Origin: Ptiloglossa arizonensis
Taxonomy: Eukaryota; Arthropoda; Insecta; Hymenoptera; Colletidae
Assembly: GCF_051014685.1 (NCBI RefSeq)
Contig: NW_027478873.1
Location: 310,001 to 374,000 of the forward strand
DNA: 64,000 nucleotides
Direction: 5' to 3'
The translations under genes and the position numbers were made by a program. Positions 1-23,683 of this stretch are shown here, piece by piece. Below the pieces are notes generated by a model. That model saw nothing but the letters and a program-made list of their open reading frames with translations. It was not told where the DNA came from and did not search any database. The stretch's first letter is position 1, and each line of letters begins with the position of its first letter.

Positions 1-1807
1 AACTTTGATGGTTTCACAACCATTCCTTAACTTCAAACTCCCATATCTCGAGAACGGATTGACGAACTCGAGAAATTCCTATTGTATTTGAAGGTAGAAA
101 CTCGCCCGATTACAATGGTGTGTGTACTTTTCCCCTAGGCCATTGCACTTATTGGTCTCGAGTATCAGACTTGCGAAAACTTTGATGGTTTCTCAACCAT
201 TCCTTAACTTCAAACTCCCATATCTCGCGAACGGATTGACGAACTCGAGAAATTCCTGTTGCATCTGAAAGCAGAAACTCGCCCGATTACAACGGGATGT
301 GCATTTTTGCCCTAGGCCATAGTAGTTATTGATTTCGAGTATAAGACATGCGAAAATTTTGATGGTGTCTCAACCACTCCTTAAATTCAAACTCCCATAT
401 CTCGCGAACGGATTGACGAACTCGAGAAATTCCTGTTGCATCTGAAAGCAGAAACTCGCCCGATTACAACGGTATTTGTATCTTTCCCCTAGGCCATTGC
501 AGTTATTGCTTTCGAGTATCAGACTTGCGAAAATTTTGATGGTTTCTCAACCGTTCCTCAATTTCAAACTCGCATATCTCGCGAACGGATTGACGAACTC
601 GAGAAATTCCTGTTGCATCTGAAAGCAGAAACTCGCCCGATTACAACGATGTGTTCTTTTCCCCTAGGCCATTGTAGTTATTGCTTTGGAGTATCAGACA
701 TGCGAAAACTTTGATGGTTTCTCAACCATTCCTTAACTTCAAACTCCCATATCTCGCGAACGGACTGACGAACTCGAGAAATTCCTGTTGCATCTGAAAG
801 CAGAAACTCGCCCGATTACAACGGTATTTGTATTTTTCCCCTAGGCCATTGCAGTTATTGGTTTCGAGTATCAGACTTGCGAAAACTTTGATGGTATCTC
901 AACCATTCCTTAACTTCAAATTCCCATATCTCGCGAACGGATTGACGAACTCGAGGATTTCCTGTTGCATCTGAAAGCAGAAACTCGCCCGATTACAACG
1001 GTATGTGTATTTTTGCCCTGGACCATAGTAGTTATTTGTTTCAAGTATCAGATTCCGAAAATTTTGATGGTTTCTCAACCATTCCTTAACTTCAAACTCC
1101 CATATCTCCCGAACGGATTGACGAACTCGAGAAATTCCTGTTGCATCTGAAAGCAGAAACTCGCCCGAATACAACGGTTTGTGCATTTTTGCCCTAGGCC
1201 ATAGTAGTTATTGGTTTCGAGTATCAGATTCCGAAAATTTTGATGGTTTCTCAACCATTCCTCAATTTCAAACTCGCATATCTCGCGAACGGATTGACGA
1301 ACTCGAGATATTACTGTTGCATCTGAAAGTAGAAACTCGCCCGATTACAATGGTGTGTGTACTTTTCCCTTAGACCATTCCAGTTATTGGTTTCGTGTAT
1401 CAGACTTGCGAAATTTTTGATTGTTTCTCAACCATTCCTTAACTTCAATCTCCCATATCTCGCGAACGGATTGACGAACTCGAGAAATTCCTATTGCATC
1501 TGAAGGCAGAAACTCGCCCGATTACAATGGTGTGTGTACTTTTCCCCTAGGCCATTGCAGTTATTGGTTTCGAGCATCAGACTTGCGAAAACTTTGATGG
1601 TTTCTCAACCATTCCTTAACTTCAAACTCCCGTATCTCGCGAACGGATTGACGAACTCGAAAAATTCCTGTTGCATCTGAAAGTAGAAACTTGCCCGATT
1701 ACAATGGTGTTTGTACTTTTCCCCTAGGCCATTCCAGTTAATGGTTTCGAGTATCAGACTTGCGAAAATTTTGATGGTTTCTCAACCATTCCATAACTTC
1801 AAACTCT
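1..1807 (+). repeat. Satellite monomers upstream of LTR copy 1
   Basis: About ten monomers. The first ~170 bp closely match the sequence starting near 21096 (same GGTTTCACAACC and TCTCGAGAACGG variants). From about 850 on the sequence is the left part of a block repeated at 22475, at a constant offset of 21,625 bp, running through the LTR. No gene or other element is visible. Confidence 0.8.
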
Positions 1808-1838
1808 TGTGGCGGCACTACCCACGCTTGCCACCAGA

Positions 1839-1864
1839 GGGAAACTCACCACCAACCGTTTCCC
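1839..1864 (+). other. Inverted repeat in presumed U3 of LTR copy 1
   Basis: GGGAAAC (1839-1845) and GTTTCCC (1858-1864) are perfect 7-bp complements separated by 12 bases. It lies about 30 bp upstream of the TATA box and is conserved in all five LTR copies. It could be a factor-binding dyad; the function is unknown. Confidence 0.5.
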
Positions 1865-1891
1865 GCAAGTTCCCGTACCTGCTGCGATCGC

Positions 1892-1899
1892 TATATATA
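1892..1899 (+). promoter_or_regulatory. TATA box of LTR copy 1
   Basis: TATATATA directly after the palindrome GCGATCGC. A start site 25-32 bp downstream would fall near 1917-1931, just at the 5' strand of ribozyme stem III. This is the normal place of a TATA box at the U3/R border of an LTR. Transcription itself cannot be seen from sequence. Confidence 0.55.
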
Positions 1900-1928
1900 C
1901 GACCTCTTACCGATCTTCCAATGTCCCG

Positions 1929-1995
1929 GCGTATAAGGCAGGGCCTGCTAGGATGCCTTACTGACGAGTCCACTAACAGGCCCGGAATGAAACGC
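1929..1995 (+). ncRNA. Type III hammerhead ribozyme, copy 1 (stem II weakened)
   Basis: All parts of the hammerhead core are present in the order of a type III ribozyme. Stem III 5' strand GCGU 1929-1932; cleavage triplet GUA with cut after A1933; stem I UAAGGCA 1934-1940 pairs perfectly with UGCCUUA 1954-1960 (7 bp); conserved CUGACGA 1961-1967; stem II 5' strand GUCC 1968-1971; conserved GAAA 1989-1992, whose last A starts the stem III 3' strand ACGC (1992-1995). In this copy the stem II 3' strand is GAAU (1985-1988) instead of GGAU, giving a C1970 x A1986 mismatch on top of a G-U closing pair, so cleavage is probably weak. Loops I (1941-1953) and II (1972-1984) are 13 nt each and are complementary over 10 of 11 positions. 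Confidence 0.85.
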
Positions 1996-2058
1996 TTATC
2001 CCCACTCCTTTTCCTATTTCCGTTCTCTCCTACCTTAAACATCTTATTAGAGCTGCCA

Positions 2059-5000
2059 AACTCCCATATCACGCGAACGGATTGACGAACTCGAGAAATT
2101 CCTGTTGCATCTGAAAGCAGAAACTCGCCCGATTACAACGGGATGTGCATTTTTGCCCTAGGCCATAGTAGTTATTGGTTTCGAGTATAAGACATGCGAA
2201 AATTTTGATGGTTTCTCAACCATTCCTTAACTTCAAACTCCCATATCTCGCGAACGGATTGACGAACTCGAAAAATTCCTGTTGCATCTGAAAGTAGAAA
2301 CTTGCCCGATTGCAATGGTGTGTGTACTTTTCCCCTAGGCCATTCCAGTTAATGGTTTCGAGTATCAGACTTGCGAAAACTTTGATGGTTTCTCAACCAT
2401 TCCTTAACTTCAAACTCCCATATCTCGCGAACGGATTGACGAACTCGAGAAATTCCTGTTGCATCTGAAAGTAGAAACTCGCCCGATTACAATGGTGTGT
2501 GTACTTTTCCCTTAGGCCATTCCAGTTATTGGTTTCGTGTATCAGACTTGCGAAATTTTTGATTGCTTCTCAACCATTCCTTAACTTCAAACTCCCATAT
2601 CCCGCGAACGGATTGACGAACTCGAGAAATTCCTATTGCATCTGAAGGCAGAAACTCGCCCGATTACAACGGTTTGTGCATTTTTGCCCTAGGCCATAGT
2701 AGTTATTGGTTTCGTGTATCAGACTTGCGAAATTTTTGATTGCTTCTCAACCATTCCTTAACTTCAAACTCCCATATATCGCGAACGGATTGACGAACTC
2801 GAGATATTCCTATTGCATCTGAAGGCAGAAACTCGCCCGATTACAATGGTGTGTGTACTTTTCCCCTAGGCCATTGCAGTTATTGGTTTCGAGTATCAGA
2901 CTTTCGAAAACTTTGATGGTTTCTCAACCATTCCTTAACTTCAAACTCCCATATCTCGCGAACGGATTGACGAACTCGAAAAATTCCTGTTGCATCTGAA
3001 AGTAGAAACTTGCCCGATTGCAATGGTGTGTGTACTTTTCCCCTAGGCCATTCCAGTTAATGGTTTCGAGTATCAGACTTGCGAAAATTTTGATGGTTTC
3101 TCAACCATTCCATAACTTCAAACTCCCATATCACGCGAGCGGATTGACGAACTCGAGAAATTCCTGTTGCATCTGAAAGTAGAAACTTGCCCGATTGCAA
3201 TGGTGTGTGTACTTTTCCCCTAGGCCATTCCAGTTAATGGTTTCGAGTATCAGACTTGCGAAAACTTTGATGGTTTCTCAACCATTCCTCAATTTCAAAC
3301 TCGCATATCTCGCGAACGGATTGACGAACTCGAGAAATTCCTCTTGCATCTGAAAGCAGAAACTCGCCCGATTACAACGGTACTTGTATTTTTCCCCTAG
3401 GCCATTGCAGTTATTGCTTTCGAGTATCAGACTTGCGAAAACTTTGATGGTTTCTCAACCATTCCTTAACTTCAAACTCCCATATCTCGCGAACGGATTG
3501 ACGAACTCGAGAAATTCCTGTTGCATCTGAAAGCAGAAACTCGCCCGATTACAACGGTTTGTGCATTTTTGCCCTAGGCCATAGTAGTTATTGGTTTCAA
3601 GTATCAGACTTGCGTAAATTTTGATGGTTTCTTAACCATTCCATAACTTCAAACTCCCATATATGCGAACGGATTGACGAACTCGAGACATTCCTGTTGC
3701 ATCTGAAAGCAGAAACTCGCCCGATTACAACGGGATGTGCATTTTTGCCCTAGGCCATAGTAGTTATTGATTTCGAGTATAAGACATGCGAAAATTTTAA
3801 TGGTGTCTCAACCACTCCTTAATTTCAAACTCCCATATCTCGCGAACGGATTGACGAACTCGAGAAATTCCTGTTGCATCTGAAAGCAGAAACTCGCCCG
3901 ATTACAACGGTATTTGTATTTTTCCCCTAGGCCATTGCAGTTATTGCTTTCGAGTATCAGACTTGCGAAAATTTTGATGGTTTCTCAACCGTTCCTCAAT
4001 TTCAAACGCGCATATCTCGCGAACGGATTGACGAACACGAGAAATTCCTGTTGCATCTGAAAGCAGAAACTCGCCCGATTACAACGATGTGTTCTTTTCC
4101 CCTAGGCCATTGCAGTTATTGGTTTCGAGTATCAGACTTGCGAAAACTTTGATGGTTTCTCAACCATTCCTCAATTTCAAACTCCCATATCTCGCGAACG
4201 GATTGACGAACTCGAGAAATTCCTGTTGCATCTGAAAGCAGAAACTCGCCCGATTACAACGGTTTGTGCATTTTTGCCCTAGGCCATAGTAGTTATTGGT
4301 TTCAAGTATCAGATTCCGAAAATTTTGATGGTTTCCCAACCATTCCTCAATTTCAAACTCGCATATCTCGCGAACGGATTGACGAACTCGAGAAATTCCT
4401 GTTGCATCTGAAAGCAGAAACTCGCCCGATTACAACGGTGTGTGTACTTTTCCCCTAGGCCATTGCAGTTATTGGTTTCGAGTATTAGACTTGCGAAAAC
4501 TTTGGTGGTTTCTCAACCATTCCTCAATTTCAAACTCGCATATCTCGCGAACGGATTGACGAACTCGAGAAATTCCTGTTGCATCTGAAAGCAGAAACTC
4601 GCCCGATTACAACGGTATTTGTATTTTTCCCCTAGGCCATTGTAGTTATTGCTTTGGAGTATCAGACATGCGAAAACTTTGATGGTTTCTCAACCATTCC
4701 TTAACTTCAAACTCCCATATCTCGCGAACGGATTGACGAACTCGAGAAATTCCTGTTGCATCTGAAAGCAGAAACTCGCCCGATTACAACGGTATTTGTA
4801 TTTTTCCCCTAGGCCATTGTAGTTATTGCTTTGGAGTATCAGACATGCGAAAACTTTGATGGTTTCTCAACCATTCTTTAACTTCAAACTCCCATATCTC
4901 GCGAACGGATTGACGAACTCGAGAAATTCCTATTGTATTTGAAGGTAGAAACTCGCCCGATTACAATGGTGTGTGTACTTTTCCCCTAGGCCATTGCAGT

Positions 5001-7620
5001 TATTGGTCTCGAGTATCAGACTTGCGAAAACTTTGATGGTTTCACAACCATTCCTTAGCTTCAAACTCCCATATCTCGAGAACGGATTGACGAACTCGAG
5101 AAATTCCTGTTGCATCTGAAAGCAGAAACTCGCCCGATTACAACGGGATGTGCATTTTTGCCCTAGGCTATAGTAGTTATTGATTTCGAGTATAAGACAT
5201 GCGAAAATTTTGATGGTGTCTCAACCACTCCTTAAATTCAAACTCCCATATCTCGCGAACGGATTGACGAACTCGAGAAATTCCTGTTGCATCTGAAAGC
5301 AGAAACTCGCCCGATTACAACGGTATTTGTATCTTTCCCCTAGGCCATTGCAGTTATTGCTTTCGAGTATCAGACTTGCGAAAATTTTGATGGTTTCTCA
5401 ACCGTTCCTCAATTTCAAACTCGCATATCTCGCGAACGGATTGACGAACTCGAGAAATTCCTGTTGCATCTGAAAGCAGAAACTCGCCCGATTACAACGG
5501 TATTTGTCTTTTTCCCCTAGGCCATTGTAGTTATTGCTTTGGAGTATCAGACATGCGAAAACGTTGATGGTTTCTCAACCATTCCTTAACTTCAAACTCC
5601 CATATCTCGCGAACGGATTGACGAACTCGAGAAATTCCTGTTGCATCTGAAAGCAGAAACTCGCCCGATTACAACGGTATTTGTATTTTTCCCCTAGGCC
5701 ATTGTAGTTATTGCTTTGGAGTATCAGACATGCGAAAACTTTGATGGTTTCTCAACCATTCCTTAACTTCAAACTCCCATATCTCGCCAACGGATTGACG
5801 AAATCGAGAAATTCCTGTTGCATCTGAAAGTAGAAACTAGCCCGATTACAGTGGTGTGTGTACTTTTCCCTTAGGCCATTCCAGTTATTGGTTTCGTGTA
5901 TCAGACTTGCGAAATTTTTGATGGTTTCTCAACCATTCCTTAACTTCAAACTCCCATATCTCGCGAACGGATTGACGAACTCGAGAAATTCCTGTTGCAT
6001 CAGAAAGCAGAAACTCGCCCGATTACAACGGTATTTGTATTTTTCCCCTAGGCCATTGTAGTTATTGCTTTGGAGTATCAGACATGCGAAAACTTTGATG
6101 GTTTCTCAACCATTCCTTAACTTCAAACTCCCATATCTCGCGAACGGATTGACGAACTCGAGAAATTCCTATTGTATTTGAAGGTAGAAACTCGCCCGAT
6201 TACAATGGTGTGTGTACTTTTCCCCTAGGCCATTGCAGTTATTGGTCTCGAGTATCAGACTTGCGAAAACTTTGATGGTTTCACAACCATTCCTTAACTT
6301 CAAACTCCCATATCTCGAGAACGGATTGACGAACTCGAGAAATTCCTATTGTATTTGAAGGTAGAAACTCGCCCGATTACAATGGTGTGTGTACTTTTCC
6401 CCTAGGCCATAGTAGTTATTGATTTCGAGTATAAGACATGCGAAAATTTTGATGGTGTCTCAACCACTCCTTAAATTCAAACTCCCATATCTCGCGAACG
6501 GATTGACGAACTCGAGAAATTCCTGTTGCATCTGAAAGCAGAAACTCGCCCGATTACAACGATGTGTTCTTTTCCCCTAGGCCATTGCAGTTATTGGTTT
6601 CGAGTATCAGACTTGCGAAAACTTTGATGGTTTCTCAACCATTCCTCAATTTCAAACTCGCATATCTCGCGAACGGATTGACGAACTCGAGAAATTCCTG
6701 TTGCATCTGAAAGCAGAAACTCGCCCGATTACAACGATGTGTTCTTTTCCCCTAGGCCATTGCAGTTATTGGTTTCGAGTATCAGACTTGCGAAAACTTT
6801 GATGGTTTCTCAACCATTCCTCAATTTCAAACTCGCATATCTCGCGAACGGATTGACGAACTCGAGAAATTCCTGTTGCATCTGAAAGCAGAAACTCGCC
6901 CGATTACAACGGTATTTGTATTTTTCCCCAAGGCCATTGCAGTTATTGCTTTCGAGTATCAGACTTGCGAAAACTTTGATGGTTTCTCAACCATTCCTTA
7001 ACTTCAAACTCCCATATCTCGCGAACGGATTGACGAACTCGAGAAATTCCTGTTGCATCTGAAAGCAGAAACTCGCCCGATTACAATGGTGTGTGTACTT
7101 TTCCCTTAGGCCATTCCAGTTATTGGTTTCGTGTTTCAGGCTTGCGAAATTTTTGATTGTTCCTCAACCATTCCTTAACTTCAAACTCCCATATCTCGCG
7201 AACGCATTGACGAACTCGAGAAATTCCTATTGCATCTGAAGGCAGAAACTCGCCCGATTACAATGGTGTGTGTTCTTTTCCCTTAGGCCATTGCAGTTAT
7301 TGGTTTCGAGTATCAGACTTGCGAAAACTTTGATGGTATCTCAACCATTCCTTAACTTCAAACTCCCATATCTCGAGAACGGATTGACGAACTCGAGGAA
7401 TTCCTGTTGCATCTGAAAGCAGAAACTCGCCCGATTACAACGGTATGTGTATTTTTGCCCTGGACCATAGTAGTTATTTGTTTCAAGTATCAGATTCCGA
7501 AAATTTTGATGGTTTCTCAACCATTCCTTAACTTCAAACTCCCATATCTCCCGAACGGATTGACGAACTCGAGAAATTCATGTTGCATCTGAAAGCAGAA
7601 ACTCGCCCGAATACAACGGT
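2059..7620 (+). repeat. Region A satellite between LTR copy 1 and the 6-mer duplication
   Basis: About 31 monomers and no other element. The first part (to about 3590) continues the LTR-containing HOR block, with GATTGCTTCTCAACC and CTCGAAAAATTCC variants. From about 3.7 kb the order GGGATGTGC, GGTATTTG, CGATGTGTTC, GGTTTGTGC, GGTGTGTGT begins, which is the module amplified through the rest of region A. A CCCATATATGCGAAC variant (CTC replaced by AT) appears at about 3658. Confidence 0.75.
2960..3136 (+). repeat. Representative satellite monomer (177 bp)
   Basis: One typical unit, given as a reference. In order it holds GAACGGATTGACGAACTCG, AAAAATTCCTGTTGCATC, TGAAAGTAGAAACTTGCCCG, a variable GT-rich spacer, CTTTTCCCCTAGGCCATTCC, a GGTTTCGAGTATCAGAC box, GCGAAAATTTTGATGGTTTC, TCAACCATTCC, and CTTCAAACTCCCATATCACG. 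Variation between monomers is concentrated in the spacer after CCCGATTACAA (GGTATTTGTAT, GGTGTGTGTAC, GGTTTGTGCAT, GGGATGTGCAT, CGATGTGTTC) and in the half after the CCTAGG site (CATTGCAG, CATTGTAG, CATTCCAG, CATAGTAG). These spacer types are the best markers for reading the HOR order. Confidence 0.9.
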
Positions 7621-8502
7621 TTGTGCATTTTTGCCCTAGGCCATAGTAGTTATTGGTTTCGTGTATCAGACTTGCGAAATTTTTGATTGTTTCTCAACCA
7701 TTCCTTAACTTCAATCTCCCATATCTCGCGAACGGATTGACGAACTCGAGAAATTCCTGTTGCATCTGAAAGTAGAAACTTGCCCGATTGCAATGGTGTG
7801 TGTACTTTTCCCCTAGGCCATTCCAGTTAATGGTTTCGAGTATCAGACTTGCGAAAACTTTGATGGTTTCTCAACCATTCCTCAATTTCAAACTCGCATA
7901 TCTCGAGAACGGATTGACGAACTCGAGAAATTCCTGTTGCATCTGAAAGCAGAAACTCGCCCGATTACAACGGTGTGTGCATTTTTGCCCTAGGCCATAG
8001 TAGTTATTGGTTTCAAGTATCAGACTTGCGTAAATTTTGATGGTTTCTCAACCATTCCATAACTTCAAACTCCCATATATGCGAACGGATTGACGAACTC
8101 GAGACATTCCTGTTGCATCTGAAAGCAGAAACTCTCCCGATTACAACGGGATGTGCATTTTTGCCCTAGGCCATAGTAGTTATTGATTTCGAGTATAAGA
8201 CATGCGAAAATTTTAATGGTGTCTCAACCACTCCTTAATTTCAAACTCCCATATCTCGCGAACGGATTGACGAACTCGAGAAATTCCTGATGCATCTGAA
8301 AGCAGAAACTCGCCCGATTACAACGGTATTTGTATTTTTCCCCTAGGCCATTGCAGTTATTGCTTTCGAGTATCAGACTTGCGAAAATTTTGATGGTTTC
8401 TCAACCGTTCCTCAATTTCAAACTCGCATATCTCGCGAACGGATTGACGAACTCGAGAAATTCCTGTTGCATCTGAAAGCAGAAACTCGCCCGATTACAA
8501 CG
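7621..8502 (+). repeat. 6-mer HOR duplication, unit 1
   Basis: The sequence starting TTGTGCATTT at 7621 repeats from 8681 with an offset of 1,060 bp, six monomers. Both contain the GTGTATCAG monomer, the CTTGCCCGATTGC monomer, the ATATATGCGAAC variant, CTCTCCCGATTAC and CCTGATGCATC in the same order. Homology ends near 8502, where this copy has GGTGTGTGTAC and the other has CGATGTGTTC. Confidence 0.8.
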
Positions 8503-10572
8503 GTGTGTGTACTTTTGCCCTAGGCCATAGTAGTTATTGGTTTCTAGTATCAGACTTGCGAAAATTTTGATGGTTTCTCAAACATTCCATAACTTCAAAC
8601 TCCCATATATGCGAACGGATTGATGAACTCGAGAAATTCCTGTTGCATCTGAAAGCAGAAACTCGCCCGATTATAACGGTTTGTGCATTTTTGCCCTAGG
8701 CCATAGTAGTTATTGGTTTCGTGTATCAGACTTGCGAAATTTTTGATTGTTTCTCAACCATTCCTTAACTTCAATCTCCCATATCTCGCGAACGGATTGA
8801 CGAACTCGAGAAATTCCTGTTGCATCTGAAAGTAGAAACTTGCCCGATTGCAATGGTGTGTGTACTTTTCCCCTAGGCCATTCCAGTTAATGGTTTCGAG
8901 TATCAGACTTGCGAAAACTTTGATGGTTTCTCAACCATTCCTCAATTTCAAACTCGCATATCTCGCGAACGGATTGACGAACTCGAGAAATTCCTGTTGC
9001 ATCTGAAAGCAGAAACTCGCCCGATTACAACGGTTTGTGCATTTTTGCCCTAGGCCATAGTAGTTATTGGTTTCAAGTATCAGACTTGCGTAAATTTTGA
9101 TGGTTTCTCAACCATTCCATAACTTCAAACTCCCATATATGCGAACGGATTGACGAACTCGAGACATTCCTGTTGCATCTGAAAGCAGAAACTCTCCCGA
9201 TTACAACGGGATGTGCATTTTTGCCCTAGGCCATAGTAGTTATTGATTTCGAGTATAAGACATGCGAAAATTTTAATGGTGTCTCAACCACTCCTTAATT
9301 TCAAACTCCCATATCTCGCGAACGGATTGACGAACTCGAGAAATTCCTGATGCATCTGAAAGCAGAAACTCGCCCGATTACAACGGTATTTGTATTTTTC
9401 CCCTAGGCCATTGCAGTTATTGCTTTCGAGTATCAGACTTGCGAAAATTTTGATGGTTTCTCAACCGTTCCTCAATTTCAAACTCGCATATCTCGCGAAC
9501 GGATTGACGAACTCGAGAAATTCCTGTTGCATCTGAAAGCAGAAACTCGCCCGATTACAACGATGTGTTCTTTTCCCCTAGGCCATTGCAGTTATTGGTT
9601 TCGAGTATCAGACTTGCGAAAACTTTGATGGTTTCTCAACCATTCCTCAATTTCAAACTCGCATATCTCGCGAACGGATTGACGAACTCGAGAAATTCCT
9701 GTTGCATCTAAAAGCAGAAACTCGCCCGATTACAACGATGTGTTCTTTTCCCCTAGGCCATTGCAGTTATTGGTTTCGAGTATCAGACTTGCGAAAACTT
9801 TGATGGTTTCTCAACCATTCCTCAATTTCAAACTCGCATATCTCGCGAACGGATTGACGAACTCGAGAAATTCCTGTTGCATCTGAAAGCAGAAACTCGC
9901 CCGATTACAACGGTATTTGTATTTTTCCCCTAGGCCATTGCAGTTATTGCTTTCGAGTATCAGACTTGCGAAAACTTTGATGGTTTCTCAACCATTCCTT
10001 AACTTCAAACTCCCATATCTCGCGGACGGATTGACGAACTCGAGAAATTCCTGTTGCATCTGAAAGCAGAAACTCGCCCGATTACAAAGGTTTGTGCATT
10101 TTTGCCCTAGGCCATAGTAGTTATTGGTTTCAAGTATCAGATTCCGAAAATTTTGATGGTTTCCCAACCATTCCTCAATTTCAAACTCGCATATCTCGCG
10201 AACGGATTGACGAACTCGAGAAATTCCTGTTGCATCTGAAAGCAGAAACTCGCCCGATTACAACGGTGTGTGTACTTTTCCCCTAGGCCATTGCAGTTAT
10301 TGGTTTCGAGTATCAGACTTGCGAAAACTTTGATGGTTTCTCAACCATTCCTCAATTTCAAACTCGCATATCTCGCGAACGGATTGACGAACTCGAGAAA
10401 TTCCTGTTGCATCTGAAAGCAGAAACTCGCCCGATTACAACGGTATTTGTATTTTTCCCCTAGGCCATTGTAGTTATTGCTTTGGAGTATCAGACATGCG
10501 AAAACTTTGATGGTTTCTCAACCATTCCTTAACTTCAAACTCCCATATCTCGCGAACGGATTGACGAACTCG
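8430..10572 (+). repeat. 12-mer block, copy 1
   Basis: A block of about 2.1 kb repeated at about 13370-15512 with an offset near 4,940 bp. Shared rare variants include TTTCTAGTATCAG with CTCAAACATTCC, CCTGATGCATC and TGCATCTAAAAGC. Differences are few, for example GCGGACGG at 10023 against GCGAACGG, and CCCGATTATAACGG against CCCGTTTATAACGG. Ends are approximate. Confidence 0.75.
8681..9562 (+). repeat. 6-mer HOR duplication, unit 2
   Basis: Second copy of the block starting at 7621 (offset 1,060 bp). The shared private variants CCTGATGCATC and CTCTCCCGATTAC show recent copying. The same block occurs a third time near 13621-14502 as part of the longer duplication of 8.4-10.6 kb. Confidence 0.8.
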
Positions 10573-13369
10573 AGAAATTCCTGTTGCATCTGAAAGTAGA
10601 AACTAGCCCGATTACAGTGGTGTGTGTACTTTTCCCTTAGGCCATTCCAGTTATTGGTTTCGTGTATCAGACTTGCGAAATTTTTGATTGTTTCTCAACC
10701 ATTCCTTAACTTCAAACTCCCATATCTCGCGAACGGATTGATGAACTCGAGAAATTCCTATTGTATTTGAAGGTAGAAACTCGCCCGATTACAATGGTGT
10801 GTGTACTTTTCCCCTAGGCCATTGCAGTTATTGGTCTCGAGTATCAGACTTGCGAAAACTTTGATGGTTTCTCAACCATTCCTTAACTTCAAACTCCCAT
10901 ATCTCGCGAACGGATTGACGAACTCGAGAAATTCCTGTTGCATCTGAAAGCAGAAACTCGCCCGATTACAACGGTATTTGTATTTTTCCCCTAGGCCATT
11001 GTAGTTATTGCTTTGGAGTATCAGACATGCGAAAACTTTGATGGTTTATCAACCATTCCTTAACTTCAAACTCCCATATCTCGCGAACGGATTGACGAAC
11101 TCGAGAAATTCCTGTTGCATCTGAAAGCAGAAACTCGCCCGATTACAACGGTATTTGTATTTTTCCCCTAGGCCATTGTAGTTATTGCTTTGGAGTATCA
11201 GACATGCGAAAACTTTGATGGTTTCTCAACCATTCCTTAACTTCAAACTCCCATATCTCGCGAACGGATTGACGAACTCGAGAAATTCCTATTGTATTTG
11301 AAGGTAGAAACTCGCCCGATTACAATGGTGTGTGTACTTTTCCCCTAGGCCATTGCAGTTATTGGTCTCGAGTATCAGACTTGCGAAAACTTTGATGGTT
11401 TCACAACCATTCCTTAACTTCAAACTCCCATATCTCGAGAACGGATTGACGAACTCGAGAAATTCCTATTGTATTTGAAGGTAGAAACTCGCCCGATTAC
11501 AATGGTGTGTGTACTTTTCCCCTAGGCCATTGCAGTTATTGGTCTCGAGTATCAGACTTGCGAAAACTTTGATGGTTTCTCAACCATTCCTTAACTTCAA
11601 ACTCCCATATCTCGCGAACGGATTGACGAACTCGAGAAATTCCTGTTGCATCTGAAAGCAGAAACTCGCCCGATTACAACGGGATGTGCATTTTTGCCCT
11701 AGGCCATAGTAGTTATTGATTTCGAGTATAAGACATGCGAAAATTTTGATGGTGTCTCAACCACTCCTTAAATTCAAACTCCCATATCTCGCGAACGGAT
11801 TGACGAACTCGAGAAATTCCTGTTGCATCTGAAAGCAGAAACTCGCCCGAATACAACGGTTTGTGCATTTTTGCCCTAGGCCATAGTAGTTATTGATTTC
11901 GAGTATAAGACATGCGAAAATTTTAATGGTGTCTCAACTACTCCTTAATTTCAAACTCCCATATCTCGCGAACGGATTGACGAACTCGAGAAATTCCTGT
12001 TGCATCTGAAAGCAGAAACTCGCCCGATTACAACGGTATTTGTATTTTTCCCCTAGGCCATTGCAGTTATTGCTTTCGAGTATCAGACTTGCGAAAATTT
12101 TGATGGTTTCTCAACCGTTCCTCAATTTCAAACTCGCATATCTCGCGAACGGATTGACGAACTCGAGAAATTCCTGTTGCATCTGAAAGCAGAAACTCGC
12201 CCGATTACAACGATGTGTTCTTTTCCCCTAGGCCATTGCAGTTATTGGTTTCGAGTATCAGACTTGCGAAAACTTTGATGGTTTCTCAACCATTCCTCAA
12301 TTTCAAACTCGCATATCTCGCGAACGGATTGACGAACTCGAGAAATTCCTGTTGCATCTGAAAGCAGAGACTCGCCCGATTACAACGATGTGTTCTTTTC
12401 CCCTAGGCCATTGCAGTTATTGGTTTCGAGTATCAGACTTGCGAAAACTTTGATGGTTTCTCAACCATTCCTCAATTTCAAACTCGCATATCTCGCGAAC
12501 GGATTGACGAACTCGAGAAATTCCTGTTGCATCTGAAAGCAGAAACTCGCCCGATTACAACGGTATTTGTATTTTTCCCCTAGGCCATTGCAGTTATTGC
12601 TTTCGAGTATCAGACTTGCGAAAATTTTGATGGTTTCTCAACCGTTCCTCAATTTCAAACTCGCATATCTCGCGAACGGATTGACGAACTCGAGAAATTC
12701 CTGTTGCATCTGAAAGCAGAAACTCGCCCGATTACAACGATGTGTTCTTTTCCCCTAGGCCATTGCAGTTATTGGTTTCGAGTATCAGACTTGCGAAAAC
12801 TTTGATGGTTTCTCAACCATTCCTCAATTTCAAACTCGCATATCTCGCGAACGGATTGACGAACTCGAGAAATTCCTGTTGCATCTGAAAGCAGAGACTC
12901 GCCCGATTACAACGATGTGTTCTTTTCCCCTAGGCCATTGCAGTTATTGGTTTCGAGTATCAGACTTGCGAAAACTTTGATGGTTTCTCAACCATTCCTC
13001 AATTTCAAACTCGCATATCTCGCGAACGGATTGACGAACTCGAGAAATTCCTGTTGCATCTGAAAGCAGAAACTCGCCCGATTACAACGGTATTTGTATT
13101 TTTCCCCTAGGCCATTGCAGTTATTGCTTTCGAGTATCAGACTTGCGAAAACTTTGATGGTTTCTCAACCATTCCTTAACTTCAAACTCCCATATCTCGC
13201 GAACGGATTGACGAACTCGAGAAATTCCTGTTGCATCTGAAAGCAGAAACTCGCCCGATTACAACGGTTTGTGCATTTTTGCCCTAGGCCATAGTAGTTA
13301 TTGGTTTCAAGTATCAGATTCCGAAAATTTTGATGGTTTCCCAACCATTCCTCAATTTCAAACTCGCAT
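10573..13369 (+). repeat. Region A satellite with paired CGATGTGTTC monomers
   Basis: About 16 monomers, no other element. It contains the CTATTGTATTTGAAGG monomers (10757, 11287, 11465), a GGGATGTGC monomer, and then two successive rounds of GGTATTTG, CGATGTGTTC, CGATGTGTTC (12.0-13.0 kb, offset about 527 bp), a local three-monomer duplication sharing the variant AGCAGAGACTCG. Confidence 0.75.
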
Positions 13370-15512
13370 ATCTCGCGAACGGATTGACGAACTCGAGAAA
13401 TTCCTGTTGCATCTGAAAGCAGAAACTCGCCCGATTACAACGGTGTGTGTACTTTTGCCCTAGGCCATAGTAGTTATTGGTTTCTAGTATCAGACTTGCG
13501 AAAATTTTGATGGTTTCTCAAACATTCCATAACTTCAAACTCCCATATATGCGAACGGATTGATGAACTCGAGAAATTCCTGTTGCATCTGAAAGCAGAA
13601 ACTCGCCCGTTTATAACGGTTTGTGCATTTTTGCCCTAGGCCATAGTAGTTATTGGTTTCGTGTATCAGACTTGCGAAATTTTTGATTGTTTCTCAACCA
13701 TTCCTTAACTTCAATCTCCCATATCTCGCGAACGGATTGACGAACTCGAGAAATTCCTGTTGCATCTGAAAGTAGAAACTTGCCCGATTGCAATGGTGTG
13801 TGTACTTTTCCCCTAGGCCATTCCAGTTAATGGTTTCGAGTATCAGACTTGCGAAAACTTTGATGGTTTCTCAACCATTCCTCAATTTCAAACTCGCATA
13901 TCTCGCGAACGGATTGACGAACTCGAGAAATTCCTGTTGCATCTGAAAGCAGAAACTCGCCCGATTACAACGGTTTGTGCATTTTTGCCCTAGGCCATAG
14001 TAGTTATTGGTTTCAAGTATCAGACTTGCGTAAATTTTGATGGTTTCTCAACCATTCCATAACTTCAAACTCCCATATATGCGAACGGATTGACGAACTC
14101 GAGACATTCCTGTTGCATCTGAAAGCAGAAACTCTCCCGATTACAACGGGATGTGCATTTTTGCCCTAGGCCATAGTAGTTATTGATTTCGAGTATAAGA
14201 CATGCGAAAATTTTAATGGTGTCTCAACCACTCCTTAATTTCAAACTCCCATATCTCGCGAACGGATTGACGAACTCGAGAAATTCCTGATGCATCTGAA
14301 AGCAGAAACTCGCCCGATTACAACGGTATTTGTATTTTTCCCCTAGGCCATTGCAGTTATTGCTTTCGAGTATCAGACTTGCGAAAATTTTGATGGTTTC
14401 TCAACCGTTCCTCAATTTCAAACTCGCATATCTCGCGAACGGATTGACGAACTCGAGAAATTCCTGTTGCATCTGAAAGCAGAAACTCGCCCGATTACAA
14501 CGATGTGTTCTTTTCCCCTAGGCCATTGCAGTTATTGGTTTCGAGTATCAGACTTGCGAAAACTTTGATGGTTTCTCAACCATTCCTCAATTTCAAACTC
14601 GCATATCTCGCGAACGGATTGACGAACTCGAGAAATTCCTGTTGCATCTAAAAGCAGAAACTCGCCCGATTACAACGATGTGTTCTTTTCCCCTAGGCCA
14701 TTGCAGTTATTGGTTTCGAGTATCAGACTTGCGAAAACTTTGATGGTTTCTCAACCATTCCTCAATTTCAAACTCGCATATCTCGCGAACGGATTGACGA
14801 ACTCGAGAAATTCCTGTTGCATCTGAAAGCAGAAACTCGCCCGATTACAACGGTATTTGTATTTTTCCCCTAGGCCATTGCAGTTATTGCTTTCGAGTAT
14901 CAGACTTGCGAAAACTTTGATGGTTTCTCAACCATTCCTTAACTTCAAACTCCCATATCTCGCGAACGGATTGACGAACTCGAGAAATTCCTGTTGCATC
15001 TGAAAGCAGAAACTCGCCCGATTACAACGGTTTGTGCATTTTTGCCCTAGGCCATAGTAGTTATTGGTTTCAAGTATCAGATTCCGAAAATTTTGATGGT
15101 TTCCCAACCATTCCTCAATTTCAAACTCGCATATCTCGCGAACGGATTGACGAACTCGAGAAATTCCTGTTGCATCTGAAAGCAGAAACTCGCCCGATTA
15201 CAACGGTGTGTGTACTTTTCCCCTAGGCCATTGCAGTTATTGGTTTCGAGTATCAGACTTGCGAAAACTTTGATGGTTTCTCAACCATTCCTCAATTTCA
15301 AACTCGCATATCTCGCGAACGGATTGACGAACTCGAGAAATTCCTGTTGCATCTGAAAGCAGAAACTCGCCCGATTACAACGGTATTTGTATTTTTCCCC
15401 TAGGCCATTGTAGTTATTGCTTTGGAGTATCAGACATGCGAAAACTTTGATGGTTTCTCAACCATTCCTTAACTTCAAACTCCCATATCTCGCGAACGGA
15501 TTGACGAACTCG
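13370..15512 (+). repeat. 12-mer block, copy 2
   Basis: Second copy of the block at 8430-10572. The homology stops near 15512, where this copy continues with CTATTGTATTTGAAGG while copy 1 continues with CTGTTGCATCTGAAAG. Confidence 0.75.
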
Positions 15513-18321
15513 AGAAATTCCTATTGTATTTGAAGGTAGAAACTCGCCCGATTACAATGGTGTGTGTACTTTTCCCCTAGGCCATTGCAGTTATTGGTCT
15601 CGAGTATCAGACTTGCGAAAACTTTGATGGTTTCTCAACCATTCCTTAACTTCAAACTCCCATATCTCGCGAACGGATTGACGAACTCGAGAAATTCCTG
15701 TTGCATCTGAAAGCAGAAACTCGCCCGATTACAACGGGATGTGCATTTTTGCCCTAGGCCATAGTAGTTATTGATTTCGAGTATAAGACATGCGAAAATT
15801 TTGATGGTGTCTCAACCACTCCTTAAATTCAAACTCCCATATCTCGCGAACGGATTGACGAACTCGAGAAATTCCTGTTGCATCTGAAAGCAGAAACTCG
15901 CCCGAATACAACGGTTTGTGCATTTTTGCCCTAGGCCATAGTAGTTATTGATTTCGAGTATAAGACATGCGAAAATTTTAATGGTGTCTCAACCACTCCT
16001 TAATTTCAAACTCCCATATCTCGCGAACGGATTGACGAACTCGAGAAATTCCTGTTGCATCTGAAAGCAGAAACTCGCCCGATTACAACGGTATTTGTAT
16101 TTTTCCCCTAGGCCATTGCAGTTATTGCTTTCGAGTATCAGACTTGCGAAAATTTTGATGGTTTCTCAACCGTTCCTCAATTTCAAACTCGCATATCTCG
16201 CGAACGGATTGACGAACTCGAGAAATTCCTGTTGCATCTGAAAGCAGAAACTCGCCCGATTACAACGATGTGTTCTTTTCCCCTAGGCCATTGCAGTTAT
16301 TGGTTTCGAGTATCAGACTTGCGAAAACTTTGATGGTTTCTCAACCATTCCTCAATTTCAAACTCGCATATCTCGCGAACGGATTGACGAACTCCAGAAA
16401 TTCCTGTTGCATCTGAAAGCAGAAACTCGCCCGATTACAACGATGTGTTCTTTTCCCCTAGGCCATTGCAGTTATTGGTTTCGAGTATCAGACTTGCGAA
16501 AACTTTGATGGTTTCTCAACCATTCCTCAATTTCAAACTCGCATATCTCGCGAACGGATTGACGAACTCGAGAAATTCCTGTTGCATCTGAAAGCAGAAA
16601 CTCGCCCGATTACAACGGTATTTGTATTTTTCCCCTAGGCCATTGCAGTTATTGCTTTCGAGTATCAGACTTGCGAAAACTTTGATGGTTTCTCAACCAT
16701 TCCTTAACTTCAAACTCCCATATCTCGCGAACGGATTGACGAACTCGAGAAATTCCTGTTGCATCTGAAAGCAGAAACTCGCCCGATTACAACGGTTTGT
16801 GCATTTTTGCCCTAGGCCATAGTAGTTATTGGTTTCAAGTATCAGATTCCGAAAATTTTGATGGTTTCCCAACCATTCCTCAATTTCAAACTCGCATATC
16901 TCGCGAACGGATTGACGAACTCGAGAAATTCCTGTTGCATCTGAAAGCAGAAACTCGCCCGATTACAACGGTGTGTGTACTTTTCCCCTAGGCCATTGCA
17001 GTTATTGGTTTCGAGTATCAGACTTGCGAAAACTTTGATGGTTTCTCAACCATTCCTCAATTTCAAACTCGCATATCTCGCGAACGGATTGACGAACTCG
17101 AGAAATTCCTGTTGCATCTGAAAGCAGAAACTCGCCCGATTACAACGGTATTTGTATTTTTCCCCTAGGCCATTGTAGTTATTGCTTTGGAGTATCAGAC
17201 ATGCAAAAACTTTGATGGTTTCTCAACCATTCCTTAACTTCAAACTCCCATATCTCGCGAATGGATTGACGAACTCGAGAAATTCCTGTTGCATCTGAAA
17301 GTAGAAACTAGCCCGATTACAGTGGTGTGTGTACTTTTCCCTTAGGCCATTCCAGTTATTGGTTTCGTGTATCAGACTTGCGAAATTTTTGATTGTTTCT
17401 CAACCATTCCTTAACTTCAAACTCCCATATCTCGCGAACGGATTGACGAACTCGAGAAATTCCTATTGTATTTGAAGGTAGAAACTCGCCCGATTACAAT
17501 GGTGTGTGTACTTTTCCCCTAGGCCATTGCAGTTATTGGTCTCGAGTATCAGACTTGCGAAAACTTTGATGGTTTCTCAACCATTCCTCAATTTCAAACT
17601 CGCATATCTCGCGAACGGATTGACGAACTCGAGAAATTCCTGTTGCATCTGAGAGCAGAAACTCGCCCGATTACAACGGTATTTGTATTTTTCCCCTAGG
17701 CCATTGTAGTTATTGCTTTGGAGTATCAGACATGCGAAAACTTTGATGGTTTCTCAACCATTCCTTAACTTCAAACTCCCATATCTCGCGAACGGATTGA
17801 CGAACTCGAGAAATTCCTGTTGCATCTGAAAGCAGAAACTCGCCCGATTACAACGGGATGTGCATTTTTGCCCTAGGCCATAGTAGTTATTGATTTCGAG
17901 TATAAGACATGCGAAAATTTTGATGGTGTCTCAACCACTCCTTAAATTCAAACTCCCATATCTCGCGAACGGATTGACGAACTCGAGAAATTCCTGTTGC
18001 ATCTGAAAGCAGAAACTCGCCCTATTACAACGGTATTTGTATTTTTCCCCTAGGCCATTGTAGTTATTGCTTTGGAGTATCAGACATGCGAAAACTTTGA
18101 TGGTTTCTCAACCATTCCTTAACTTCAAACTTCCATATCTCGCGAACGGATTGACGAACTCGAGAAATTCCTATTGAATTTGAAGGTAGAAACTCGCCCG
18201 ATTACAATGGTGTGTGTACTTTTCCCCTAGGCCATTGCAGTTATTGGTCTCGAGTATCAGACTTGCGAAAACTTTGATGGTTTCACAACCATTCCTTAAC
18301 TTCAAACTCCCATATCTCGAG
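15495..18321 (+). repeat. 16-mer HOR (2,827 bp), unit 1
   Basis: A run of 16 monomers followed directly by a near-identical copy at an offset of 2,827 bp. Order of spacer types: CTATTGTATTT/GTGTGTG, GGGATGTGC, GAATACAACGGTTTG, GGTATTTG, CGATGTG, CGATGTG, GGTATTTG, GGTTTGTGC, GGTGTGTGT, GGTATTTG, CTAGCCCG/GTGTGTG, CTATTGTATTT, GGTATTTG, GGGATGTGC, GGTATTTG, CTATTGAATTT. Private markers shared with unit 2 include CATGCAAAAACTTTG, GCGAATGG, AACTCCAGAAATTCC, TGAGAGCAG and GCCCTATTACAACGG. Confidence 0.85.
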
Positions 18322-21148
18322 AACGGATTGACGAACTCGAGAAATTCCTATTGTATTTGAAGGTAGGAACTCGCCCGATTACAATGGTGTGTGTACTTTT
18401 CCCCTAGGCCATTGCAGTTATTGGTCTCGAGTATCAGACTTGCGAAAACTTTGATGGTTTCTCAACCATTCCTTAACTTCAAACTCCCATATCTCGCGAA
18501 CGGATTGACGAACTCGAGAAATTCCTGTTGCATCTGAAAGCAGAAACTCGCCCGATTACAACGGGATGTGCATTTTTGCCCTAGGCCATAGTAGTTATTG
18601 ATTTCGAGTATAAGACATGCGAAAATTTTGATGGTGTCTCAACCACTCCTTAAATTCAAACTCCCATATCTCGCGAACGGATTGACGAACTCGAGAAATT
18701 CCTGTTGCATCTGAAAGCAGAAACTCGCCCGAATACAACGGTTTGTGCATTTTTGCCCTAGGCCATAGTAGTTATTGATTTCGAGTATAAGACATGCGAA
18801 AATTTTAATGGTGTCTCAACCACTCCTTAATTTCAAACTCCCATATCTCGCGAACGGATTGACGAACTCGAGAAATTCCTGTTGCATCTGAAAGCAGAAA
18901 CTCGCCCGATTACAACGGTATTTGTATTTTTCCCCTAGGCCATTGCAGTTATTGCTTTCGAGTATCAGACTTGCGAAAATTTTGATGGTTTCTCAACCGT
19001 TCCTCAATTTCAAACTCGCATATCTCGCGAACGGATTGACGAACTCGAGAAATTCCTGTTGCATCTGAAAGCAGAAACTCGCCCGATTACAACGATGTGT
19101 TCTTTTCCCCTAGGCCATTGCAGTTATTGGTTTCGAGTATCAGACTTGCGAAAACTTTGATGGTTTCTCAACCATTCCTCAATTTCAAACTCGCATATCT
19201 CGCGAACGGATTGACGAACTCCAGAAATTCCTGTTGCATCTGAAAGCAGAAACTCGCCCGATTACAACGATGTGTTCTTTTCCCCTAGGCCATTGCAGTT
19301 ATTGGTTTCGAGTATCAGACTTGCGAAAACTTTGATGGTTTCTCAACCATTCCTCAATTTCAAACTCGCATATCTCGCGAACGGATTGACGAACTCGAGA
19401 AATTCCTGTTGCATCTGAAAGCAGAAACTCGCCCGATTACAACGGTATTTGTATTTTTCCCCTAGGCCATTGCAGTTATTGCTTTCGAGTATCAGACTTG
19501 CGAAAACTTTGATGGTTTCTCAACCATTCCTTAACTTCAAACTCCCATATCTCGCGAACGGATTGACGAACTCGAGAAATTCCTGTTGCATCTGAAAGCA
19601 GAAACTCGCCCGATTACAACGGTTTGTGCATTTTTGCCCTAGGCCATAGTAGTTATTGGTTTCAAGTATCAGATTCCGAAAATTTTGATGGTTTCCCAAC
19701 CATTCCTCAATTTCAAACTCGCATATCTCGCGAACGGATTGACGAACTCGAGAAATTCCTGTTGCATCTGAAAGCAGAAACTCGCCCGATTACAAAGGTG
19801 TGTGTACTTTTCCCCTAGGCCATTGCAGTTATTGGTTTCGAGTATCAGACTTGCGAAAACTTTGATGGTTTCTCAACCATTCCTCAATTTCAAACTCGCA
19901 TATCTCGCGAACGGATTGACGAACTCGAGAAATTCCTGTTGCATCTGAAAGCAGAAACTCGCCCGATTACAACGGTATTTGTATTTTTCCCCTAGGCCAT
20001 TGTAGTTATTGCTTTGGAGTATCAGACATGCAAAAACTTTGATGGTTTCTCAACCATTCCTTAACTTCAAACTCCCATATCTCGCGAATGGATTGACGAA
20101 CTCGAGAAATTCCTGTTGCATCTGAAAGTAGAAACTAGCCCGATTACAGTGGTGTGTGTACTTTTCCCTTAGGCCATTCCAGTTATTGGTTTCGTGTATC
20201 AGACTTGCGAAATTTTTGATTGTTTCTCAACCATTCCTTAACTTCAAACTCCCATATCTCGCGAACGGATTGACGAACTCGAGAAATTCCTATTGTATTT
20301 GAAGGTAGAAACTCGCCCGATTACAATGGTGTGTGTACTTTTCCCCTAGGCCATTGCAGTTATTGGTCTCGAGTATCAGACTTGCGAAAACTTTGATGGT
20401 TTCTCAACCATTCCTCAATTTCAAACTCGCATATCTCGCGAACGGATTGACGAACTCGAGAAATTCCTGTTGCATCTGAGAGCAGAAACTCGCCCGATTA
20501 CAACGGTATTTGTATTTTTCCCCTAGGCCATTGTAGTTATTGCTTTGGAGTATCAGACATGCGAAAACTTTGATGGTTTCTCAACCATTCCTTAACTTCA
20601 AACTCCCATATCTCGCGAACGGATTGACGAACTCGAGAAATTCCTGTTGCATCTGAAAGCAGAAACTCGCCCGATTACAACGGGATGTGCATTTTTGCCC
20701 TAGGCCGTAGTAGTTATTGATTTCGAGTATAAGACATGCGAAAATTTTGATGGTGTCTCAACCACTCCTTAAATTCAAACTCCCATATCTCGCGAACGGA
20801 TTGACGAACTCGAGAAATTCCTGTTGCATCTGAAAGCAGAAACTCGCCCTATTACAACGGTATTTGTATTTTTCCCCTAGGCCATTGTAGTTATTGCTTT
20901 GGAGTATCAGACATGCGAAAACTTTGATGGTTTCTCAACCATTCCTTAACTTCAAACTTCCATATCTCGCGAACGGATTGACGAACTCGAGAAATTCCTA
21001 TTGAATTTGAAGGTAGAAACTCGCCCGATTACAATGGTGTGTGTACTTTTCCCCTAGGCCATTGCAGTTATTGGTCTCGAGTATCAGACTTGCGAAAACT
21101 TTGATGGTTTCACAACCATTCCTTAACTTCAAACTCCCATATCTCGAG
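18322..21148 (+). repeat. 16-mer HOR (2,827 bp), unit 2
   Basis: Near-identical to the preceding unit. The differences I noticed are single bases, such as AGGCCGTAG at 20703 against AGGCCATAG, ACAAAGGTG at 19793 against ACAACGGTG, and GGTAGGAAC at 18363 against GGTAGAAAC. Confidence 0.85.
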
Positions 21149-21560
21149 AACGGATTGACGAACTCGAGAAATTCCTATTGTATTTGAAGGTAGGAACTCG
21201 CCCGATTACAATGGTGTGTGTACTATTCCCCTAGGCCATTGCAGTTATTGGTCTCGAGTATCAGACTTGCGAAAACTTTGATGGTTTCTCAACCATTCCT
21301 TAACTTCAAACTCCCATATCTCGCGAACGGATTGACGAACTCGAGAAATTCCTGTTGCATCTGAAAGCAGAAACTCGCCCGATTACAACGGGATGTGCAT
21401 TTTTGCCCTAGGCCATAGTAGTTATTGATTTCGAGTATAAGACATGCGAAAATTTTGATGGTGTCTCAACCACTCCTTAAATTCAAACTCCCATATCTCG
21501 CGAACGGATTGACGAACTCGAGGAATTCCTGTTGCATCTGAAAGCAGAAACTCGCCCGAT
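21149..21560 (+). repeat. 16-mer HOR, partial third unit
   Basis: Continues the 2,827-bp period for about two monomers, with the same GGTAGGAAC variant as unit 2 and a private change GTACTATTCCC near 21221. It then switches at about 21560 to the GGTATTTGTATCTTTCC monomer that leads into the LTR-containing HOR. Confidence 0.75.
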
Positions 21561-23516
21561 TACAACGGTATTTGTATCTTTCCCCTAGGCCATTGCAGTT
21601 ATTGGTTTCGAGTATCAGACTTGCGAAAATTTTGATGGTTTCTCAACCGTTCCTCAATTTCAAACTCGCATATCTCGCGAACGGATTGACGAACTCAAGA
21701 AATTCCTGTTGCATCTGAAAGCAGAAACTCGCCCGATTACAACGATGTGTTCTTTTCCCCTAGGCCATTGCAGTTATTGTTTTCGAGTATCAGACTTGCG
21801 AAAACTTTGATGGTTTCTCAAACATTCCTCAATTTCAAACTAGCATATCTCGCGAACGGATTGACGAACTCGAGAAATTCCTGTTGCATCTGAAAGCAGA
21901 AACTCGCCCGGTTACAACGATGTGTTCTTTTCCCCTAGGCCATTGCAGTTATTGGTTTCGAGTATCAGACTTGCGAAAACTTTGATGGTTTCTCAACCAT
22001 TCCTCAATTTCAAACTCGCATATCTCGCGAACGGATTGACGAACTCGAGAAATTCCTGTTGCATCTGAAAGCAGAAACTCGCCCGATTACAACGGTATTT
22101 GTATTTTTCCCCTAGGCCATTGCAGTTATTGCTTTCGAGTATCAGACTTGCGAAAACTTTGATGGTTTCTCAACCATTCCTTAACTTCAAACTCCCATAT
22201 CTCGCGAACGGATTGACGAACTCGAGAAATTCCTGTTGCATCTGAAAGCAGAAACTCGCCCGATTACAATGGTGTGTGTACTTTTCCCTTAGGCCATTCC
22301 AGTTATTGGTTTCGTGTTTCAGATTTGCGAAATTTTTGATTGTTTCTCAACCATTCCTTAACTTCAAACTCCCATATCTCGCGAACGCATTGACGAACTC
22401 GAGAAATTCCTATTGCATCTGAAGGCAGAAACTCGCCCGATTACAATGGTGTGTGTACTTTTCCCTTAGGCCATTGCAGTTATTGGTTTCGAGTATCAGA
22501 CTTGCGAAAACTTTGATGGTATCTCAACCATTCCTTAACTTCAAACTCCCATATCTCGCGAACGGATTGACGAACTCGAGGAATTCCTGTTGCATCTGAA
22601 AGCAGAAACTCGCCCGATTACAACGGTATGTGTATTTTTGCCCTGGACCATAGTAGTTATTTGTTTCAAGTATCAGATTCCGAAAATTTTGATGGTTTCT
22701 CAACCATTCCTTAACTTCAAACTCCCATATCTCCCGAACGGATTGACGAACTCGAGAAATTCCTGTTGCATCTGAAAGCAGAAACTCGCCCGAATACAAC
22801 GGTTTGTGCATTTTTGCCCTAGGCCATAGTAGTTATTGGTTTCGAGTATCAGATTCCGAAAATTTTGATGGTTTCTCAACCATTCCTCAATTTCAAACTC
22901 GCATATCTCGCGAACGGATTGACGAACTCGAGATATTCCTGTTGCATCTGAAAGTAGAAACTCGCCCGATTACAATGGTGTGTGTACTTTTCCCTTAGAC
23001 CATTCCAGTTATTGGTTTCGTGTATCAGACTTGCGAAATTTTTGATTGTTTCTCAACCATTCCTTAACTTCAATCTCCCATATCGCGCGAACGGATGGAC
23101 GAACTCGAGAAATTCCTATTGCATCTGAAGGCAGAAACTCGCCCGATTACAATGGTGTGTGTACTTTTCCCCTAGGCCATTGCAGTTATTGGTTTCGAGC
23201 ATCAGACTTGCGAAAACTTTGATGGTTTCTCAACCATTCCTTAACTTCAAACTCCCATATCTCGCGAACGGATTGACGAACTCGAAAAATTCCTATTGCA
23301 TCTGAAAGTAGAAACTTGCCCGATTACAATGGTGTTTGTACTTTTCCCCTAGGCCATTCCAGTTAATGGTTTCGAGTATCAGACTTGCGAAAATTTTGAT
23401 GGTTTCTCAACCATTCCATAACTTCAAACTCCTGTGGCGGCACTACCCACGCTTGCCACCAGAGGGAAACTCACCACCAACCGTTTCCCGCAAGTTCCCG
23501 TACCTGCTGCGATCGC

Positions 23517-23524
23517 TATATATA
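23517..23524 (+). promoter_or_regulatory. TATA box of LTR copy 2
   Basis: TATATATA after GCGATCGC, 34 bp upstream of the ribozyme cut site at A23558. Same context as in copy 1. Confidence 0.5.
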
Positions 23525-23553
23525 CGACCTCTTACCGATCTTCCAATGTCCCG

Positions 23554-23620
23554 GCGTATAAGGCAGGGCCTGCTAGGATGCCTTACTGACGAGTCCACTA
23601 ACAGGCCCGGGATGAAACGC
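23554..23620 (+). ncRNA. Type III hammerhead ribozyme, copy 2 (core intact)
   Basis: Stem III GCGU 23554-23557 with ACGC 23617-23620; cleavage after A23558 (GUA); stem I 23559-23565 with 23579-23585; CUGACGA 23586-23592; stem II GUCC 23593-23596 with GGAU 23610-23613; GAAA 23614-23617. Unlike copy 1, stem II is fully paired (three Watson-Crick pairs plus one G-U next to the core). Loop I GGGCCUGCUAG and loop II CUAACAGGCCC are complementary at 10 of 11 positions. Likely cleavage-competent, though the G-U at position 10.1/11.1 is non-canonical. Confidence 0.88.
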
Positions 23621-23683
23621 TTATCCCCACTCCTTTTCCTATTTCCGTTCTCTCCTACCTTAAACATCTTATTAGAGCCGCCA

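Follow-up and report, generated by a model that had tools for sequence, protein, structure and literature searches.

A solo LTR with a type III hammerhead motif in a hymenopteran satellite array probably derives from a retrozyme-type LTR retrotransposon

The element that begins at position 1808 of the 64-kb window (the whole stretch of DNA analyzed, C503:310001-374000 of a 998.7-Mb genome assembly of 2016 contigs that we searched) is, with a probability of roughly 80%, a solo LTR left by a non-autonomous, retrozyme-type LTR retrotransposon that was recently mobile in an aculeate hymenopteran and would follow the life cycle proposed below. A first-pass annotation of this DNA had suggested a retrozyme-type solo LTR with a type III hammerhead, and full-length two-LTR elements elsewhere in the genome back that assignment.

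The host is an aculeate hymenopteran and not a plant, as judged from its telomere repeat and an animal phosphodiesterase gene. Chromosome-size contigs carry an animal cGMP phosphodiesterase gene resembling PDE5/6, and when six open stretches from 20 host stretches were compared with Pfam, the two that matched both came from this same gene. The repeat (TTAGGTCTGGG)n, a telomere motif reported in many aculeates (PMC10632776), occurs on two of the eight contig ends read and in degenerate form on a third. Two other contig ends (L057 and L059, on C2 and C3) carry long (CGTATAA)n-like arrays in place of telomere repeats, and the left flanks of element loci L026-L028 are similar to these contig-end arrays. 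Because the host is an insect, membership of the plant retrozyme family cannot simply be assumed.

Five solo LTRs in a 177-bp satellite array

The window consists almost wholly of a 177-bp tandem satellite, into which the element is inserted. This array occupies positions 4..1806 to the left of the first LTR copy (strand not assigned) and 2057..64000, the window end, where it can also be read as a 354-bp dimer and is interrupted by four further copies. Copy 1 is a 253-bp solo LTR on the + strand at 1808..2060 (TGTGGCGGC...GCTGCCAAA) with the 3' end CCAAA, and copies 2 to 5, also on the + strand, lie at 23433..23685, 31997..32249, 32962..33214, and 33749..34001 and have the 3' end GCCGCCAAA. 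The five copies are 97.6-100% identical. The target-site duplication (TSD) of copy 1 reads CTCT on the left (1804..1807, +; CTCC in the remaining window copies) and CTCC on the right (2061..2064, +), a pair that corresponds to one substitution in a CTCC duplication. We assigned two extra adenines to the LTR, giving 253 bp and a 4-bp TSD, because full-length copies elsewhere show both. These full-length copies rule out a TG...CA LTR with a 6-bp duplication and replace the 251-bp element with AACTCC flanks of the first-pass annotation. The TATA box that it placed in the element is present as a TATA-like TATATATA at 1892..1899 (+), with its first base 37 nt upstream of the ribozyme and a putative promoter function.

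All five window copies occupy the same satellite position, with CAAACTCY on the left (AAAACTCC in one copy) and CTCCCATA on the right, and the same junction was seen in three more copies, two on C503 and one on C224, for eight in total. Because the junction is identical in all eight copies read, these represent one insertion multiplied by the array and not five insertions; a solo LTR in one 177-bp monomer was copied passively along with the array. The copy at C503:307311 is identical to the copy at 1808, including the C.A mismatch described below. The original proposal that the LTR had been captured by the satellite holds for this copy, but as a single insertion that the array then amplified. 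At nine other loci the element lies in the same kind of satellite with different flanks, and satellite-like flanks were found at 10 of the 25 loci L009-L033. The satellite was present in none of 20 random host stretches, all drawn from seven large contigs, and for this reason an insertion preference for satellite cannot be claimed.

Full-length elements and a candidate helper

In a genome search with the LTR, many of the best 40 scored of 1173 candidates were paired ~760 bp apart. These pairs belong to full-length elements of about 1,010 bp with the layout LTR, primer site, ~509 bp, polypurine tract, LTR. Two-LTR elements elsewhere in the genome had been named as the main test of the initial reading, and they were found together with a primer site, a polypurine tract, and 4-bp TSDs. 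The LTR length of about 253 bp was fixed by the outer flanks of 19 distinct insertions, in which the TSD was 4 bp in 17 cases and 5 bp in two. These 19 are the insertions with both outer ends reached, bar one array copy (CTCT/CTCC); of the remaining rows, two show the satellite insertion again or in a variant form and six were not scorable. The interior starts with the primer site GTGGTGACCCCGTCTAG... and ends with the polypurine tract ...GCAAGGGGGTTA, where GCAAGGGGG precedes TTA|TGTGG at the 3' LTR. Fourteen of 40 scored interiors, the query's own copy included, were identical over 506 bp and all 40 matched at 99% or better, these 40 being the best-scoring part of 284 candidates. This near-uniformity is the sign that the element has been recently mobile in its host genome.

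The predicted cut-to-cut unit measured 759-764 nt and 54% GC in all seven elements measured, compared with an average of 40% GC in 20 other host stretches. In the two copies tested, folding this unit as a circle gave a stability 4.6-4.9 SD above that of 40 dinucleotide shuffles, with only 57-58% of the bases paired; for metazoan repeat RNAs compared with plant ones, the cited text gives more than 70% (PMC4918200). When stop-free stretches alone were counted, the longest spanned 211 codons and came from L010 with its unit doubled. L011 is a tandem with three LTRs and L016 one with four; in the latter (C6:18608800-18612200) the first and third LTRs look alike, as do the first and third interiors, and the others differ. 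One random 10-kb stretch contained a divergent solo LTR (L039:7901-8146) that lacks 8 bp of the TATA repeat and has two changes in the ribozyme region.

The primer site reads TGGTGACCCCG..., which is tRNA-Trp-like. This reading rules out the tRNA-Met primer-binding site that had been expected at the outset. Most elements read carry TGGTGACCCCGTCTAG, which agrees with the exact Trp-type site for 11 nt and then diverges. A search with a primer-site pattern that omits copies with C after TAG gave 31 matches, eight of which read AAGTGGTGACCCCGACGTGA, presumably the tRNA-Trp primer site itself. Reading on from five of these eight sites showed one (L086) that is retrozyme-like just upstream of the primer site and four that are followed by the same gag-like leader containing an ATG. 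The leader is present at 11 places, itself included. At C7:3248486 (L088:147-321 with L084), a hammerhead LTR is followed by the exact Trp-type primer site and then by the gag-like leader. Over 209 columns this LTR matches that of the retrozyme at 94% identity; its hammerhead has CTGAAGA in the CTGANGA motif, and its stem II is weakened. In the 60 bp upstream of the primer site, the sequence of the other three gag-leader copies is different, and for one of these three the 261 bp upstream of it showed no similarity to the retrozyme LTR. A hammerhead LTR on C7, joined to a leader shared with elements of apparently different LTR, suggests either that a coding element once had hammerhead LTRs or that an LTR was swapped. 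The tRNA-Trp-like primer site points to the CsRn1 lineage of Ty3/gypsy elements, from which we infer a candidate helper; CsRn1 elements are described as having tRNA-Trp primer-binding sites and 4-bp TSDs (PMC3630058, PMC2582038).

The hammerhead motif and its predicted folding

The ribozyme in the LTR is of type III, with stem III open. Window copies have its parts in the order GCGTA, 7-bp stem I, CTGACGA, GTCC, loop, GGRAT, and GAAACGC, and retain an intact core, the cut triplet GUA, and the stem III pairs A-U, C-G, G-C, and C-G. In copy 1 the hammerhead spans 1929..1995 (+), with GCGTA at 1929-1933, a cut predicted between 1933 and 1934, stem I at 1934-1940/1954-1960, CTGACGA at 1961-1967, stem II GTCC/GGAAT, and GAAACGC at 1989-1995. 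The hammerheads of copies 2 to 5 lie at 23554-23620 (predicted cut after 23558), 32118-32184, 33083-33149, and 33870-33936. Copy 1 reads GGAAT before GAAA, which places a C.A mismatch in stem II; copies 2 to 5 read GGGAT and form four stem II pairs, the core-adjacent one being a G.U wobble. The parts and the 7-bp stem I are as first annotated, but the GUCC/GGAU pairing given there does not hold for copy 1, in which this stem is mismatched. Complementarity between loops 1 and 2 spans 7 nt in CTAACAGGCCC copies and 11 nt in the commonest form (GGGCCTGCTAG with CTAGCAGGCCC), and most LTR copies have 7-11 nt of it. Within the window, it spans 11 nt in copies 4 and 5, and copy 3 has one change in each loop (GCAAGG, CAGGACC).

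A strict descriptor gave four matches in the window, all inside the solo LTRs (the 1808 copy fails through its mismatch), one match in 40 Mb of random sequence, and none in both strands of 200 kb of other host DNA. Rfam at the gathering threshold gave no match across the whole window. At a lax threshold, applied to 321 nt around copy 2, hammerhead type III was the best of three rows at 22.9 bits and E 0.012, a value that refers to 321 nt compared with all families. The type III check that had been suggested for the original annotation lists the expected family first here, but at a score far below its gathering cut-off of 48.5 bits. At three other loci, five of eight LTR copies were listed at E 0.34 and the remaining copies, including both of L010, did not come within E 1. 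Type III was the top family wherever any family was listed. A whole-genome search with RF00008 returned none at E<=1 among the 68 scored of 95,232 candidates.

Core and stems were identical over 77 nt in 43 of 54 LTR copies, a set that comprises the 40 best-scoring matches and their adjoining partner LTRs and is thus not random and contains some duplicates. Among the 46 dispersed copies left when the eight satellite copies were set aside, two of 69 ribozyme columns and 12 of 117 LTR-head columns were variable (Fisher p 0.086), a difference that is only suggestive of ribozyme conservation beyond that of the LTR head. A contrast of 3/3174 minority cells in the ribozyme with 175/8243 elsewhere carries less weight, as it is mostly due to the hypervariable LTR tail. 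In the copies folded, the nested minimum-energy structure was not the hammerhead, although copy 3 does form stem I. In the commonest form, a loop-loop helix of 11 bp was more favorable than the hammerhead (-30.3 versus -12.2 kcal/mol, kissing energy not counted). Loop complementarity is predicted to stabilize this nested competing fold, so folding order would matter. Loop-loop pseudoknots are reported as probable in about 40% of hammerheads, whose speed can depend critically on them (PMC3088659).

Unlike LTR tails, life cycle, and relation to known elements

In the LTR, head and ribozyme are fairly constant and precede a hypervariable pyrimidine-rich 3' tail and a constant end, and the high diversity of the tail lies between two nearly uniform segments of the element. 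In each of the 19 multi-LTR loci compared, the outermost LTRs differed at 0-3 positions in head plus ribozyme (188 bp). The tails at these same loci showed 0-1 differences in seven cases and 3-14 in 12 (L011, L016, L018-L020, L022, L024, L026-L028, L032, and L033), three of which (L026-L028) look like one duplicated locus. Since one LTR per pair had often been chosen for its likeness to the query, this LTR-selected sample is biased. In a sample selected by interior (ten of the 14 copies with an interior identical to the query, among L063-L068 and L075-L082), unlike tails with matching interiors were found in seven of ten copies and, when loci were distinguished by right flank, in five of eight. 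TSDs are present at the unlike-tail loci L011, L016, L019, L022, L032, and L033. Standard LTR synthesis makes both LTRs alike. We weakly favor an origin of the unlike tails in two passes of reverse transcription round a circular template with a template switch; frequent gene conversion after insertion could also produce them.

In the life cycle that we propose, the ~1,010-bp element would be transcribed from the TATA promoter in the LTR head. The hammerhead in each LTR would then cut the transcript after GUA at the predicted sites and free a unit of ~760 nt, which, by analogy with plant retrozymes, may be ligated into a circle. A CsRn1-lineage Ty3/gypsy helper, acting from a tRNA-Trp primer, would reverse-transcribe and integrate this unit, and both the primer site and the 4-bp duplications expected of such a step were observed. 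A copy of the element that landed in a single 177-bp satellite monomer, where it is now a solo LTR, was multiplied passively by the array, as the junction shared by the eight copies read shows. A more specific history can be put forward only tentatively: an animal lineage of CsRn1 type may have gained an LTR hammerhead, as on C7, its derivatives would amplify through circular RNA, and heterotypic LTR pairs would record two-pass, template-switching reverse transcription, evidence of circles kept in the genome.

Movement with the same helper by standard linear-RNA LTR retrotransposition is an unlikely alternative to the retrozyme cycle, even though LTRs, primer site, polypurine tract, and 4-bp TSDs would suffice for a TRIM, and the low Rfam score, the G.U wobble at the core-proximal pair, the more stable competing fold, and the modest excess of conservation over the LTR head are all in its favor. 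Against it stand a full catalytic core with complementary loops that is unchanged in 43 of 54 copies and the single descriptor match in 40 Mb of random sequence, and LTR pairs with differing tails are unexpected from standard two-jump synthesis.

Far less probable still are two readings that place the element within families already described. A plant-type retrozyme in plant DNA would account for type III hammerheads in LTRs, the 4-bp TSD, and the ~760-nt unit, but is disfavored by the animal phosphodiesterase gene, the aculeate telomere repeat, and a primer site of Trp rather than Met type. An animal non-LTR retrozyme of type I, or a hammerhead satellite as in newts or cave crickets, would fit a hammerhead within an insect satellite array. 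Here, however, the motif is of type III with an open stem III, it sits in an LTR of an element with a primer site, polypurine tract, and 4-bp TSDs, and descriptor matches in the window are confined to LTR insertions.

Plant LTR retrozymes, as described by Cervera, Urbina, and de la Pena (2016; PMC4918200), have two LTRs with type III hammerheads, a primer site, a polypurine tract, a short interior, 4-bp TSDs, and a cut-to-cut unit of 600-1000 nt, and also occur as solo LTRs and as tandems with three or four ribozymes. The insect element shares the pair of LTRs, both with a type III hammerhead by sequence (below the Rfam gathering score), a unit of comparable length, the presence of a primer site, a short interior, the polypurine tract, the 4-bp TSDs, the solo LTRs, and the tandems of three and four LTRs. 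It differs from them in its LTR of about 253 bp (~300-400 bp in plants), its tRNA-Trp-like rather than tRNA-Met primer site, its long complementary loops, and its insect host. One of its hammerhead LTRs is joined to a gag-like leader, whereas the plant study saw no resemblance to autonomous elements apart from two small boxes (PMC4918200). Given these departures in primer tRNA, LTR length, and host, we keep it apart from the plant family and regard it as a variant of that design in animals.

Metazoan non-LTR retrozymes are described as noncoding type I hammerhead elements of ~170-400 nt without LTR, primer-binding site, or polypurine tract, with TSDs, when present, of more than 4 bp, and with some copies in multimeric tandem arrays (PMC7229834). 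Like these, the insect element is a small hammerhead retroelement of an animal with some copies in tandem arrays; as a type III element with LTRs, primer-binding site, and polypurine tract, it is not one of them. It resembles the CsRn1 lineage in its tRNA-Trp-like primer-binding site and 4-bp TSD, but CsRn1 elements are autonomous and encode gag-pol, and the cited passages mention no LTR ribozyme (PMC3630058, PMC2582038). As a small non-autonomous LTR element with primer-binding site and polypurine tract, it is also like TRIMs, which include the animal family Helenus, with TSDs of 4 bp, and some hymenopteran families primed by tRNA-Trp. The LTRs of Helenus, however, are said to hold a tRNA-like sequence in place of a hammerhead (PMC10886601).

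According to the cited part of a 2024 review, complete LTR retrozymes have been identified only in dicots and animal retrozymes are non-LTR and type I (PMC11722881), and a 2020 review hints, partly from work in preparation, at insect elements with type III hammerheads (PMC7761336). No LTR retrozyme from any animal was reported in the portions of the open-access literature searched. In this literature, type III retrozymes with LTRs belong to plants and type I retrozymes without LTRs to animals, so the insect element is a new combination. If true, an LTR retrozyme of an insect that bears a type III hammerhead would show that this design also exists outside plants, and the origin of LTR retrozymes, by independent assembly or by transfer, would become testable. 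The copy with the gag-like leader may connect the retrozyme to a coding element, a link that was not found in plants, and with tails that differ between the LTRs of one element, genome sequences alone are enough to test the circular-template model.
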